A DNA stretch of 64,000 nt from Nocardia australiensis (GTDB lineage Bacteria > Actinomycetota > Actinomycetes > Mycobacteriales > Mycobacteriaceae), in assembly GCF_020733705.1 (NCBI RefSeq), contig NZ_JAJFZM010000002.1, positions 186,001 to 250,000 on the forward strand. The letters are read 5' to 3'. The notes under the pieces were generated by a model. The model worked only from the letters and a program-made list of their open reading frames with translations, was not told the origin of the DNA and ran no database searches. The stretch's first letter is position 1; every line of letters starts with the position of its first letter. This document shows, one piece after another, positions 20,456 to 25,565 of this stretch. A program made the position numbers and the translations under genes.

Positions 20456-20617
20456 GCAGTGCCGGCCTCGGCCCTGTATTCGTGGTCATCGGATATCGGC
20501 GCCGATTGCGGTGTCGCGTTCGCGTGGCCGCGCTAACACCACGTCACCCTGCTCACCGCCACCCACGACGTCGACCAGGCTAAGCCGCGGTGCTCGCCGA
20601 ATGGTCCGACGGGAAGT

Positions 20618-20657
20618 GGGGTCCCGGTAGTAACCGTGCGAAAAACAACGACAATGG
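20618..20657 (+). repeat. Left 40-bp terminal inverted repeat
   Basis: It starts GGGGTCCCGG and ends ACGACAATGG, and is identical base for base to the reverse complement of 23342-23381. The outer GGGG and the 38-40 bp length are Tn3-family features. Confidence 0.9.
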
Positions 20658-20664
20658 GCCGGAG

Positions 20665-20790
20665 CCACTTGTCGGGTGCCGAGTTTCGGTTTCTGCCCGC
20701 CGCTGCGGCCACGGGCGCGGGCGGCGGCCAGCCCGTAGCCGATTCGCATGGCGCGGAGTGTATTGCGAACCCGCGACAGGTTGACGTTGG
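20665..20790 (-). pseudogene. Serine resolvase (tnpR) C-terminal relic
   Basis: The leftward frame reads RIGYGLAAARARGRSGGQKP then KLGTRQV, matching the linker of Tn3-type resolvases (GLAAARARGRxGGRPxxLTxxxV) that leads into the C-terminal HTH. The catalytic N-terminal domain and the HTH are gone; the frame runs into the left inverted repeat. It supports the Tn3 origin of the cassette. Confidence 0.55.
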
Positions 20791-20911
20791 CGCGTACACG
20801 GCAACCTTTACAGGTCCGGCCTGCGGGAACCCGCTACGGCCGAGGGGGTCTCGCGAATGATCGTTACCGGACATGAGTCGGCTTGGCTGCCGACTTCGGT
20901 TTCTTCTTTCG

Positions 20912-21367
20912 TCAACCCTGCAGCCGGGCTCGTGTTGCCGACGGGTCGATGCCCAGGGCGGACAGCAGGGCGACGATCGGATCGGGTCGGTCGCGTTCCA
21001 ATAGCGCAGCCAGCAGGTGTCGTGTCTCGATGCGGCGGGATCTCTCCGCTGCGGCCAGGGTCAGCGTGCGTGACAGGACCTGACGCGCCCCCGAGTTGAA
21101 TGGGGGACGCTTGCCTGCGCCGGGGGTGCCGATGGGCCGGAAGTCGCCGAGGTCGATACCGATCGCGGCCAGGGACTGCCGGTCGAGCTCATCGGCTGCC
21201 GCGCGTGCTGTTTCAGCGGTGACACCGAGCAGGTCGGAGCTGGTCGGTTCGTTCAGCGCGGCCAGTAGCAGATGCTCGGTGCCGACCCGCCGATCGCCGC
21301 GCTGCCGAGCCTCTTCAGCGGCTTCTCGTACGACAGAACGCGCCGCCGCAGCGAACCGTTCGAACAT
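20912..21367 (-). CDS. Clp N-terminal (ClpN) domain protein
   Basis: 151 residues made of two Clp_N repeats: MFERFAAAARSVVREAAEEA with GTEHLLLAALNE (about 28-39), and a second unit ERSRRIETRHLLAALLERDR (about 109-128). There is no ATPase domain. Stand-alone Clp_N proteins are thought to capture substrates or regulators for Clp machines; in actinobacteria they often sit beside a small HTH gene as here. The start is 1 bp downstream of the stop of the HTH gene, so both are co-transcribed leftward from the operator region. Confidence 0.88.
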   Translation of the reverse strand: MFERFAAAARSVVREAAEEARQRGDRRVGTEHLLLAALNEPTSSDLLGVTAETARAAADELDRQSLAAIGIDLGDFRPIGTPGAGKRPPFNSGARQVLSRTLTLAAAERSRRIETRHLLAALLERDRPDPIVALLSALGIDPSATRARLQG

Positions 21368-21368
21368 C

Positions 21369-21578
21369 TCAGCGTCCCTTTCCGTATTTGGCGTGTATCG
21401 ACTGCCGCGTCACGCCGAGTGCGTCGCCGATCTGTTCCCATGACCAGCCCTCACGGCGCGCGAGTTCAACGTGCACGGCCTCGACCTGCTCCGCGAGGCG
21501 ATGCAGGGCGCCGACAGCGCGCAGCCCGACCGCCGGATCAGTGGTCCGGATCCGGGCTGATAGATCTTCGGTGGTCAT
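21369..21578 (-). CDS. Small HTH regulator (69 residues)
   Basis: The protein begins MTTEDLSARI and carries HVELARREGWSWEQIGDALG followed by VTRQSIHAKYGKGR, a compact helix-turn-helix at the extreme C-terminus. A longer version starting at 21638 would run through operator DNA, so the ATG at 21578 is preferred. It is divergent from the FAD monooxygenase gene across DNA with several GTCAGT half-sites, which makes it the probable local repressor, possibly working with the Clp_N protein encoded next to it. Confidence 0.8.
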   Translation of the reverse strand: MTTEDLSARIRTTDPAVGLRAVGALHRLAEQVEAVHVELARREGWSWEQIGDALGVTRQSIHAKYGKGR

Positions 21579-21582
21579 GCCC

Positions 21583-21654
21583 GTCAGTCTGCCTTGACAA
21601 CCGTGGCGCGTCAATACAGACTGACGGAGTTTGATCATGTCAGTTCAAACTGAC
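21583..21654. promoter_or_regulatory. GTCAGT-type operators and divergent promoter
   Basis: GTCAGTCTG (21583-21591) and CAGACTGAC (21617-21625) are exact inverted copies. A perfect 16-bp palindrome GTCAGTTCAAACTGAC lies at 21639-21654. TTGACA (21594-21599) followed by TACAGA (21615-21620) could be a promoter for the monooxygenase, so the second half-site would sit on its -10 region. The four half-sites share GTCAGT. Confidence 0.7.
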
Positions 21655-21673
21655 ACTCTTGGAGGAGGTTGCG

Positions 21674-23149
21674 GTGAATCTCGATGTCGTTATCGCAGGA
21701 GCCGGCCCCACCGGGCTGCTGCTCGCCTACGAACTGGGCCTTGCCGGCGTACCCGCCCTGGTGCTGGACAAGGCGCAACGACCCGACGAACAACCCCGCG
21801 CCAACGGGCTCGTCGGTCAGATCACCCGAGTGCTCGCCTATCGCGGCTTGCTCGACGGCACATCTTTCCACCCCATGGCAGTGCCCCGATTCCCGTTCGG
21901 GCCGCTGTCCCTGGAACTCGACAGGCTCGAAGCCAGCCCGCTGCACGTGCTGCCCATCCCACAACGCGACCTCGAGGAACTGCTGCACGACGCCGCAGCC
22001 GGAGTGGGCGCGACCGTACAGCGTGGCCACGAAGTGGTCGGGTTCGAGAAGAAGGACGAGGGGCTTGTGGTGCGAGTTCAGGGCCCCACCGGCGAATACC
22101 GGCTCACAGCGAGGTATCTCGTCGGCTGCGACGGCGCCCGCAGCTTCGTCCGCAAACACGCGGGCATAGCCTTCCCAGGCATCACCAGCGACGAGGTCGC
22201 CCGCATCGCGCGGGTGACTATGCCGGCCGATGAGGTCGCTATCGCCGATGGAACACTGGCAGTGCGCGGCGTCCAACTGGCGCTGGTGCGACCCAACCGC
22301 ACCGCGACCGGCTCGATCACCATTACTCCGCAGTCAATTCTCGACCCGTCGGTCGACCCGGACGTGTACATTCTGGCGACCTCCGAACCTCGTCCGCCGC
22401 ACCTGCCGGACACCCTTACTTTCGATGAGCTGCGTGCCAGTGTCCGGCGCGTGCTCGGCACCGACCTGCCGATCACCGGCGCGCGCTGGCTGCGCAGCAC
22501 CGTCGGCAACAGCAGACAAGCGGACACCTACCGGGCCGAACGGGTCTTTCTCGCCGGTGATGCCGCGCACCTATTCGCCACAGGCGGCACCGCCCTCAAC
22601 GCCGGGCTACTGGATGCAGTCAATCTCGGCTGGAAACTGGCCGCCGCGGTAAAAGGCACAGCCCCAGCGGGCCTGCTCGACACCTATCATGCCGAACGCC
22701 ACCCCGCCGGCCGCCGCGCGATCACACACACCCGGGCGCAGGCGGCCTTGTCGAGTTCGGGCGAGAACGCCGACGCCCTGCGCGAAGTCCTCGCTGAACT
22801 GCTGCGATACCCGAGTCCGTTGACTCACCTGGCGACGCTTATGGAAGGCGCCGACGTGACCTATGGGCCTGGCCCACTGGTCGGCACCTGGGCGCCGGAC
22901 GCCCTGGACGAGCACATGGCGGCGGCACTGATCGAGCCCCTGCGCGGTGGTAGGGCCGTCCTCGTCGATAGCACGGACGACGGGAAACTCGCCGCGATAA
23001 CCGGGCCGTGGCGAAAATGGGTCGATGTGGCCGAAACCCCTGGCTCCGGCCCGTCCGCACTGGTCCGCCCGGACGGATACCTGGCCTGGGCGGACGGTGC
23101 CCCCGACGGCCTGCATGAGACCCTGGCGAAGTGGTTCGGAACGCCGTAG
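21674..23149 (+). CDS. FAD-dependent aromatic monooxygenase (PHBH/RdmE type)
   Basis: 491 residues. FAD motif VIAGAGPTGLLLAYELGLAG lies at about 5-24, the DG motif VGCDGARSFVRKHAGIAFPG at about 152, and VFLAGDAAHLFATGGTALNA at about 290. A C-terminal thioredoxin-like domain (about 390-491) ends in an ordinary way, so the protein is complete. It resembles polyketide and rifampicin/tetracycline-type hydroxylases; the substrate cannot be assigned. GTG 21674 has GGAGGAGG upstream; TTG 21659 is in frame but inside that site. It is the main cargo enzyme of the inverted-repeat cassette and is controlled by the GTCAGT operators. Confidence 0.88.
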   Translation: MNLDVVIAGAGPTGLLLAYELGLAGVPALVLDKAQRPDEQPRANGLVGQITRVLAYRGLLDGTSFHPMAVPRFPFGPLSLELDRLEASPLHVLPIPQRDLEELLHDAAAGVGATVQRGHEVVGFEKKDEGLVVRVQGPTGEYRLTARYLVGCDGARSFVRKHAGIAFPGITSDEVARIARVTMPADEVAIADGTLAVRGVQLALVRPNRTATGSITITPQSILDPSVDPDVYILATSEPRPPHLPDTLTFDELRASVRRVLGTDLPITGARWLRSTVGNSRQADTYRAERVFLAGDAAHLFATGGTALNAGLLDAVNLGWKLAAAVKGTAPAGLLDTYHAERHPAGRRAITHTRAQAALSSSGENADALREVLAELLRYPSPLTHLATLMEGADVTYGPGPLVGTWAPDALDEHMAAALIEPLRGGRAVLVDSTDDGKLAAITGPWRKWVDVAETPGSGPSALVRPDGYLAWADGAPDGLHETLAKWFGTP

Positions 23150-23174
23150 CCGCCGATCGAGGTAGCCGTACCGC

Positions 23175-23341
23175 CAGTCTTCCCATGGGCCCGGCGCAGG
23201 GCGTGCAGGGATTCGCCGTTGTTGAGCTGTCGGGAGATCTTGCGTCGGTAGTCGGGATTGGTCAGATATCGGCAGGCGTAGACGGTGCGGCGCATCGCGC
23301 CGTACTCCTTGAGCGGAAGCCCGACGTCACCGCTGGTCAAG
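23175..23341 (-). pseudogene. Tn3-family transposase internal relic
   Basis: Leftward translation gives GDVGLPLKEYGAMRRTVYAC and RYLTNPDYRRKISRQLNNGE, ending SLHALRRA. It aligns with the C-terminal part of Tn3 TnpA present at 47784-48365 (LKEYGALRRTIYAARYLSDP). It starts directly at the right inverted repeat and lacks everything else. DNA similarity to the 48-kb copy is partial, so it comes from a different Tn3 lineage. Confidence 0.8.
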
Positions 23342-23381
23342 CCATTGTCGTTGTTTTTCGCACGGTTACTACCGGGACCCC
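23342..23381 (-). repeat. Right 40-bp terminal inverted repeat
   Basis: Exact reverse complement of 20618-20657; the outer end reads GGGACCCC on the plus strand, followed by GAATT. Confidence 0.9.
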
Positions 23382-23422
23382 GAATTGACGGGCGAACGTG
23401 AGATCGAGTGTCGGACGGCCGG

Positions 23423-24364
23423 TTACCACGATTCGATCAGTGGGACATCATGCTGCTGCCGCTGCCATTCCTCGGTGAGGCGACCGAGTCGGTCCGGGGC
23501 GGCGATCCCGCGCACGCCTGCGATCTTGTCGTCACGGATCTCCAGGATCACGACGCCCACGACCCGGTCGTCGAGCGCGGCGAGTATGGCCGGGCAGCCA
23601 TTGACCACGACGGCATGGATCGAGGGTGAGCCACCGGCGAGTCTGCGCTTGGCCGGAGACGGTTTGAAGCCGGCCCGCATCGCGCTGGCGATCCGCTCCG
23701 GGGTCGAGTACCGGATCAGCTTTTCGGCCAGGCCCAGCCCGGCGCCGTCGGAGATGCCGGTCGCGTCGTCGGTCAGTAGCGCCACCAGCCGTTCGGTCCG
23801 GCCCGAGGAGGCGGCATCGACGAACGCCTCGACGATTCGACGCGCGGAGGCATGGTCGATGTCAGTGCCGTTGCCAGCGGCGGCGATTCGACGCCGGGCT
23901 CGGTGGGTGTGTTGCTGACTCCCGGACTCGGTGATGCCGAGAATCTCGGCTATCTCGGCGTGGCTGTAGGCAAATGCCTCGCGCAGCACGTAAACGGCCC
24001 GTTCGACCGGCGACAGACGCTCCATGAGCGTCAGCACCGCCAGGGTCACCGATTCGCGCTGCTCGACGGTGTCGGCCGGGCCCAGCATCGGGTCGCCGTC
24101 GAGGAGCGGTTCGGGCAGCCAGGCGCCGACCGCGCGTTCGCGCCGCACCTTCGCCGAACGGAGCCGGTCGAGCGCGAGGTTGGTGACGATCTTGGTCAAC
24201 CATGCCTCGGGCACCTCGACGTACTCCCGGTCGGCGGCCTGCCACCGTAGGAACGCGTCCTGCACTGTGTCCTCGGCGTCGGCGGCCGAGCCGAGCAGAC
24301 GGTAGGCGAGCGAGGCCAGCCGATTCCGGCTGGCCTCGAAATGCGCCACGGTGGCAGTGTCCAT
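23423..24364 (-). CDS. sigJ: ECF41 sigma factor SigJ
   Basis: 313 residues. Sigma-70 region 2 (EASRNRLASLAYRLLGSAAD, AEDTVQDAFLRWQ) and region 4 (LSPVERAVYVLREAFAYSHA, EIAEILGITESGSQQHTHRA) are followed by a SnoaL-like C-terminal domain (about 180-313), the ECF41 hallmark in place of a separate anti-sigma factor. In characterised ECF41 proteins this extension tunes sigma activity. It lies 10 bp downstream of the NAD(P)/FAD oxidoreductase gene, the standard genomic partner, and forms an operon with it. Confidence 0.92.
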   Translation of the reverse strand: MDTATVAHFEASRNRLASLAYRLLGSAADAEDTVQDAFLRWQAADREYVEVPEAWLTKIVTNLALDRLRSAKVRRERAVGAWLPEPLLDGDPMLGPADTVEQRESVTLAVLTLMERLSPVERAVYVLREAFAYSHAEIAEILGITESGSQQHTHRARRRIAAAGNGTDIDHASARRIVEAFVDAASSGRTERLVALLTDDATGISDGAGLGLAEKLIRYSTPERIASAMRAGFKPSPAKRRLAGGSPSIHAVVVNGCPAILAALDDRVVGVVILEIRDDKIAGVRGIAAPDRLGRLTEEWQRQQHDVPLIESW

Positions 24365-24374
24365 GAGCCCGACT

Positions 24375-25565
24375 CTATGCGGCGACCACATCGGGCGAGT
24401 GCTCTCGAGTGGTGGCCAAGCGGTATTGGTGACCCGGTCTTCCGAAGGTCGGGTGGCTCAGGCTCCAGGCGGCAGTATCGAGGATTGCCGACTTGACGCG
24501 CGCGGCCGTCCGGCCACATAGGGCCCACGACTTCGATCGCGCGTCACCGTCGACCAGCTGGAAGAGCCCGTCCTTCCGGCCGAGGCTGATGTGGTTGCCG
24601 ACATACGACAGCGAGGTCGTCGAGATCTTGCGTCCGGTCCGGTCCCCGATAATCGCGGCCGTCGCCTGCATACTTGTTACTCCCGCGGAAGCGCAGGACA
24701 TCGGCAACGGCCGACCGTTCTCGCCGATGACGAAGGCGCTGTCACCGGCAACGTAGACATCCGGGTGCGAGATCGACCGCATCTGACGGTCGACCGTGAT
24801 CTGGCCGTTGGTTACCACTTCGAGGCCGCTGGCGGCGGCAATCGGGTGAACGGCGAAGCCTGCGGCCCACACGGTCGCGTCGGCGGTGAACGCGGTGCCG
24901 TCGGCGGCGATCGCCACAGCCTCCTCGACGAGCTCGATGGTGGTGTGCTCGTGGACCGTGATACCGAATCGGTCGAAGGCGCGCAGCATGTGACGGCGGG
25001 CCTTGGGGCCCAGCCAGCCGCCCAGTTCGCCGCTGGTGGCGAGGCTGACCCGAAGTCCTGGACGGGATTCGGCGATCTCGGTGGCGGCTTCGATCGCGGT
25101 CAGGTTGCCGCCGACCACCAGTACGTGCCGGCCCTCGTCCAGCTCGTCCAGGCGTGCGCGCAGGCGCAGCGCGGCCGGCCGCGCTGCCACATGGTAGGCG
25201 TGCTCGTCGACGCCGGGAACGCCGTGGTCTGCGGTGGTGCTGCCGAGCGCGTAGAGGAGGGTGTCGTATTCGAGCCGGTCGATACCGTCGCCGTCGGCGA
25301 CTGTGACAGTCCGGTGCTCGGCGTCGACGTTGGTTACCCGCGCCAGCCGTAGCCGGATGTCGGTGCCCGCGAACACCTCCGCCAGCGGCCGGCGGCGGAG
25401 ATCCTGCCCGGCGGCGAGCTGATGCAGGCGCAGCCGCTCGACGAAATCAGGTTCGGCGTTGACGACGGTGATCTCGAAGTCGTCGGAGTGGAGTTGGCGG
25501 GCCAGGTATCCGGCGGAGAAGGTTCCGGCGTATCCGGCCCCGAGGATGACGATGCGGTGCTGCAT
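24375..25565 (-). CDS. NAD(P)/FAD-dependent oxidoreductase (NDH-2-like), SigJ partner
   Basis: 396 residues. The N-terminal FAD-binding motif is HRIVILGAGYAGTFSAGYLA, a second NAD(P) motif is VLVVGGNLTAIEAATEIAE near residue 146, and VYVAGDSAFVIGENGRPLPM near 281 closes the FAD site. The fold is that of type II NADH dehydrogenases, but there is no obvious membrane-anchoring C-terminal helix. ECF41 loci usually encode such an oxidoreductase, carboxymuconolactone decarboxylase or epimerase as the sigma target. ATG 25565 follows CAGGAG. A plausible ECF41-type promoter lies at 25597-25625. Confidence 0.88.
   Translation of the reverse strand: MQHRIVILGAGYAGTFSAGYLARQLHSDDFEITVVNAEPDFVERLRLHQLAAGQDLRRRPLAEVFAGTDIRLRLARVTNVDAEHRTVTVADGDGIDRLEYDTLLYALGSTTADHGVPGVDEHAYHVAARPAALRLRARLDELDEGRHVLVVGGNLTAIEAATEIAESRPGLRVSLATSGELGGWLGPKARRHMLRAFDRFGITVHEHTTIELVEEAVAIAADGTAFTADATVWAAGFAVHPIAAASGLEVVTNGQITVDRQMRSISHPDVYVAGDSAFVIGENGRPLPMSCASAGVTSMQATAAIIGDRTGRKISTTSLSYVGNHISLGRKDGLFQLVDGDARSKSWALCGRTAARVKSAILDTAAWSLSHPTFGRPGHQYRLATTREHSPDVVAA

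Follow-up and report, generated by a model that had tools for sequence, protein, structure and literature searches.

A decayed Tn3-family element of Nocardia australiensis carrying a candidate split ClpC2-type repressor and a divergent FAD monooxygenase

How can a transposon whose own transposition genes are broken keep perfect ends and intact cargo, and what would that cargo do for its host? This question is raised by a locus of Nocardia australiensis within a 64-kb stretch of DNA that was analysed as a whole (the window, whose positions are used below). A Tn3-family element of 2,764 bp lies at 20618-23381, where perfect 40-bp ends enclose fragments of tnpR and tnpA together with three intact genes: one for a helix-turn-helix (HTH) protein, one for a Clp_N protein, and one for an FAD monooxygenase.

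The limits of the element were set by end comparison. The terminal inverted repeats at 20618-20657 (plus strand) and 23342-23381 (minus strand) are of the Tn3 type, start with GGGG, and are 100% complementary (40/40). With up to three mismatches allowed, the first 29 bases of the end occur in the window at these two sites only (0.00 expected). The flanking pentamers are GAAGT at 20613-20617 and GAATT at 23382-23386. A query of joined flanks showed that two other Nocardia genomes (G141 and G118; loci L058 and L059) retain an empty site, which reads GACGG-GAATT-GACGG, and in G002, G124, and G138 the alignment ran continuously across the junction with small differences. Since the empty site reads GAATT, the right pentamer is the original one and the left has changed once; read from these sequences, the pair is a 5-bp target-site duplication with one later mutation. 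The perfect ends and near-matching pentamers described in the initial annotation are thus borne out. The insertion is about 40 bp downstream of an ECF sigma factor gene with wide conservation in the genus (region 23382-24391).

Between the ends, the transposition genes survive as pieces that can be aligned to an intact relative in the same genome (locus L006). The 3' part of tnpR at 20658-20739 (minus strand) is 82% identical to L006:2264-2345 within the intact tnpR, and the start of tnpR with its upstream block, at 20713-20867 (minus strand), is 79% identical to L006:2682-2846. A 118-bp fragment of the DDE domain of tnpA at 23198-23315 (minus strand) is 86% identical to L006:6944-7061 and matches DDE_Tnp_Tn3 (PF01526, E 1.6e-11). 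Subterminal sequence common to the intact element follows at 23314-23341, and 23314-23381 as a whole is 97% identical to L006:9722-9789. These two tnpR pieces and one tnpA piece agree with the earlier description of both genes as broken. Because no intact DDE transposase TnpA is present, the cassette is classed as a non-autonomous member of the Tn3 family, and the sequence supports a genuine insertion of a Tn3-derived element. Eighteen Nocardia elements share a conserved block upstream of tnpR; in the cassette tnpR is broken while this block persists, with nearly all conserved columns retained. From its position and conservation, we take it to be a putative res, the site of cointegrate resolution.

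The intact relative is a 7,729-bp element about 209 kb from the cassette (G000:C2:418560-426288, which is L006:2061-9789). It has two perfect copies of the same 40-bp end and a perfect target duplication (AAGAT/AAGAT). It encodes an intact TnpR and a TnpA of 1004 aa with a full DDE domain, both with full Pfam matches, as well as an HXXEE protein, a TetR protein, and a DrrA/DrrB-type ABC exporter. Plasmids of Nocardia and Rhodococcus commonly carry relatives of its TnpA (82-88% identity). The cassette shares with it the ends, the res-like block upstream of tnpR, and the order of parts (tnpR, upstream block, cargo, tnpA, right end), but differs in its broken tnpA and tnpR and in its cargo. Derivation of the cassette from this element by deletion was considered and rejected: identity of the tnpA relic to its counterpart reaches only 86%, and the cassette's upstream block is a variant without the short insert of the intact element, so that the parent was a sister transposon. 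As a helper, the intact element could still be a source of transposase for the cassette.

If the cassette can no longer move, it would be a dead remnant that was inserted once and holds an ordinary chromosomal unit, with perfect ends that reflect a fairly recent insertion. The fragmented tnpR and tnpA, the mutation in the target duplication, and the single copy of the cargo in the host genome fit this reading. Identical cassettes at other sites, which the initial annotation had thought worth looking for, did not turn up in that genome. The ends, however, are identical to each other and to those of the helper over 40 bp, whereas most other Nocardia copies deviate by 1-3 bases; the res-like block has been retained, and the genes of the helper are intact. 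We regard an immobile remnant as possible rather than probable. The helper TnpA would be able to bind the ends and its TnpR to resolve at res, and the cassette is therefore better viewed as non-autonomous and potentially mobilisable in trans.

Ends of this type were also sought more widely, as the initial annotation had proposed. With up to three mismatches, the end is present in 9 of the 150 Nocardia genomes searched, including the host genome. The 29-base end had no exact match in 84,980 species genomes, which makes the exact end rare there, and one partial match, on a Nocardia plasmid, in 72,556 plasmid records. The host genome also has, at L007:5193-5254 (G000:C1, ~619214), a lone right end of this transposon family that carries two mismatches. 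In G110, a 9.75-kb Tn3 element with the same end type and GATCA duplications (L042:2013-11762) carries MFS, PAP2, and ChrB_N genes among its cargo, and its tnpA is split by a group II intron reverse transcriptase (L042:9070-10554). A second non-autonomous element, in G079 (L047:4175-9541), has TnpA residues 1-70 fused to 942-1004; its cargo comprises an alpha/beta hydrolase, a short-chain dehydrogenase, and a TetR gene. The ends of this element show 3-4 mismatches to those of the cassette, and TAACA is found on both sides if the left end begins one base earlier.

Among known systems, the cassette resembles TIMEs and TIME-COMPs, which lack a transposase but have Tn3-type ends (about 38-40 bp), 5-bp duplications and, in some cases, res; the composites among them carry genes. 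In TIME-COMPs two miniature elements bound the cargo, whereas here a single Tn3 transposon, of an actinobacterial lineage, has decayed internally and retained fragments of tnpR and tnpA. TIMEs are miniature and contain no coding sequence; the cassette, at 2,764 bp and with three genes, may work like a TIME though it is not classed as one.

The cargo block itself (20911-23175) is co-linear with a unit of Nocardia bovistercoris (L041; 84% identity over 2266 bp) with exact limits, and this homology (L041/L123) covers precisely the three genes, which there have no Tn3 ends around them. A second relative is a unit of Dactylosporangium siamense (L124) with 78% identity; a lanthipeptide-synthetase-like gene (RamC_N, kinase, LANC) comes after that unit (L124:7598-10216). 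In the species collection, only these two species have a close relative of the monooxygenase, and no close relative of the Clp_N protein was found in the plasmid records. The syntenic loci examined in relatives are empty, and the same gene set without repeats occurs at unrelated loci, which leaves the initial description of a transposed cassette standing. More broadly, an HTH/Clp_N pair with a divergent FAD monooxygenase was found at nine loci (the cassette, L041, L124, L054, L055, L169, L170, L171, and L172), of which only the cassette has Tn3 ends; no Tn3 genes were found near the sister units. Compared with the N. bovistercoris unit, dN/dS is 0.24 for the monooxygenase, 0.15 for the Clp_N protein, and 0.10 for the HTH protein, indicating purifying selection on the proteins since the two units diverged. 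Selection for the retained cargo, which the initial annotation had suggested, is therefore supported for the unit (0.10-0.24) but not for its period within the transposon.

The three genes are probably more than neighbours. The Clp_N protein (151 aa; 20912-21367, minus strand) is a stand-alone ClpC1-type N-terminal domain (PF02861, E 4e-13). Its predicted model (pLDDT 85) superimposes on the ClpC1 N-domain bound to lassomycin with Z 19.4 and an rmsd of 1.8 A over 135 residues, and on the C-domain of ClpC2 with Z 14.9. The HTH protein (69 aa; 21369-21578, minus strand) matches the ClpC2 N-domain profile (hhalign, prob 96, E 2.9e-9); a fold search with its model gave generic HTH and Fis-like matches, none with E <0.001, and ClpC2 was not among the matches listed. 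The first ATG of the HTH reading frame is at 21638, but an alternative ATG at 21578 lies directly behind the operators, as in relatives, and is probably the start, which would be leaderless.

ClpC2 (Rv2667), from mycobacteria, was recently described as an antibiotic sensor and sponge (PMC10030653). It represses itself at CGTCAAC-n5-GTTGACG just upstream of its leaderless ORF; cyclomarin relieves this autorepression, and ClpC2 serves as a sponge (PMC10030653). The cassette pair shares with ClpC2 an HTH-like N-terminal part, a ClpC1-type domain, a leaderless start, and paired GTCA-n-TGAC operators that overlap the -35 and -10 elements. It differs in that ClpC2 is one protein and the cassette has two adjacent genes, in operator spacing (9 in ClpC2, 8 in the cassette), and in sharing its operators with a divergent monooxygenase. 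Of the ClpC1 contacts with cyclomarin, F2 and F80 are retained in the cassette protein, but E89 is replaced by S, and the ligand may therefore differ or be absent. Two ClpC2 arginines reported to help DNA binding (PMC10030653) are also lost, so that DNA contact would need to come from the HTH protein. From the profile and model matches, the two proteins are likely to be the DNA-binding and sensor halves of a split ClpC2-type repressor rather than independent cargo. The initial annotation recognized both genes as present and intact; it read them as separate cargo and missed the split repressor with operators in the shared promoter.

These operators lie between the divergent genes. GTCA-n8-TGAC occurs at three sites in 72 bp and nowhere else within the 64 kb, where 1.09 would be expected. 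The first, GTCAGTCTGCCTTGAC at 21583-21598, contains most of the -35 element (TTGACA) of the monooxygenase and overlaps the -10 element of the HTH promoter; the second, GTCAATACAGACTGAC at 21610-21625, overlaps the -35 element of the HTH promoter and the putative -10 element of the monooxygenase; and the third, GTCAGTTCAAACTGAC at 21639-21654, lies downstream of the putative monooxygenase promoter and is also found in L041 and L124. The predicted operators thus overlap both divergent promoters. Together with the three ORFs, they uphold the description of three intact genes with operators of their own. Every sister unit read has two or three sites of the GTCA-n8-TGAC type. Relative to the HTH start, the cassette sites are located at -47 and -20, and the -35 element is identical to that of clpC2. 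The true ClpC2 of the host genome (L090:2110-2832) has two GTCA-n9-TGAC sites at -47 and -19 and the -35 element TTGACG, which matches the published ClpC2 operator (PMC10030653). Across the genus, at least one such operator is present at all 30 Nocardia clpC2 loci inspected, and two are present at 28 of them.

The third gene encodes a class A FAD monooxygenase of 491 aa (21674-23149, plus strand), with Pfam matches to FAD_binding_3 (E 2.7e-64) and Rng_hyd_C. In the PDB, it is closest to a Baeyer-Villiger monooxygenase, an angucycline-type oxygenase, and a rifampin monooxygenase (5vqb). It resembles the rifampin monooxygenases (Rox/Iri; 5vqb, 5kow) as a class A FAD enzyme with a full-length match to 5vqb, but falls far under the NCBIfam equivalog cut-off (rif_monoox, 317.9 vs 800). 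Rifamycin, proposed earlier as one substrate, has therefore been dropped as a weak candidate. None of the NCBIfam equivalogs shown reaches its cut-off for this protein. These relatives would also suit a metabolic role, in which an aromatic compound, catabolic or biosynthetic, would be hydroxylated by the enzyme and sensed by Clp_N: many polyketide and aromatic hydroxylases belong to the class A FAD enzymes, the Baeyer-Villiger and angucycline-type oxygenases lead the PDB matches, and no family model assigns the protein at its cut-off. However, structures of the mycobacterial Clp_N domain with small-molecule ligands have antibiotics bound, and the cargo slots of sister transposons carry exporters and a ChrB-like gene. 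We consider the metabolic role rather unlikely.

Less probable again is a purely autoregulatory HTH/Clp_N pair, serving as an adaptor in protein quality control or as a sensor of stress, with the monooxygenase beside it under separate control. In favour of this reading, no monooxygenase adjoins a further split pair in the host genome (L092) or four of the eight closest pairs found elsewhere (L166, L167, L168, and L173), and ClpC2 is reported to be heat-induced as well (PMC10030653). Against it, the operators are sited between the divergent genes, in their promoter region, and are conserved there at nine loci, and the three closest units (cassette, L041, and L124) have a third operator on the monooxygenase side. 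Another HTH and Clp_N pair of the host genome adjoins an ABC exporter (L091:1835-4383), and its upstream palindrome differs.

We thus favour the reading of an inducible detoxification unit captured in a decayed Tn3 transposon that can be mobilised in trans, and consider this scenario as a whole likely. A Nocardia Tn3 transposon with the layout left end, tnpR, res, cargo slot, tnpA, right end would have borne the three-gene unit in this slot. Most of tnpR and tnpA would then have been lost through several internal deletions that left both 40-bp ends and the res block in place. Insertion at GAATT duplicated the pentamer. The TnpA of the intact element may bind the identical cassette ends, and its TnpR may resolve the cointegrate at res. 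Within the cargo, the HTH and Clp_N proteins would jointly form a ClpC2-type repressor on the GTCA-n8-TGAC operators, repressing in both directions, until a small molecule in the ClpC1-like pocket of Clp_N frees it. Release would raise the levels of the Clp_N protein, a possible sponge, and of the monooxygenase, which may oxidise the ligand or a related compound. Against the scenario stand the origin of the cassette from a transposon other than this helper, its single-copy cargo, the loss of the E89 contact and the ClpC2 arginines, the HTH fold search that did not pick out ClpC2, and the half of the closest pairs without a monooxygenase.

ClpC1 is a drug target in mycobacteria. A more specific and more speculative version of the scenario is a transposon-borne antibiotic response, in which the split ClpC2-type protein senses and soaks up a natural product, perhaps one directed at ClpC1, and induces the monooxygenase that destroys it, the whole being moved by other Tn3 transposases; we hold this version to be doubtful. 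A literature search of titles and abstract starts, with most subscription journals outside its scope, found no paper describing this arrangement. In sum, a split ClpC2-like switch recurs in Mycobacteriales and Dactylosporangium, often adjoining a monooxygenase, and a Tn3-type transposon has captured it in one case. Should the proposed reading be true, the cassette would represent a mobile sense-and-destroy response, and its operators would make the regulon searchable.
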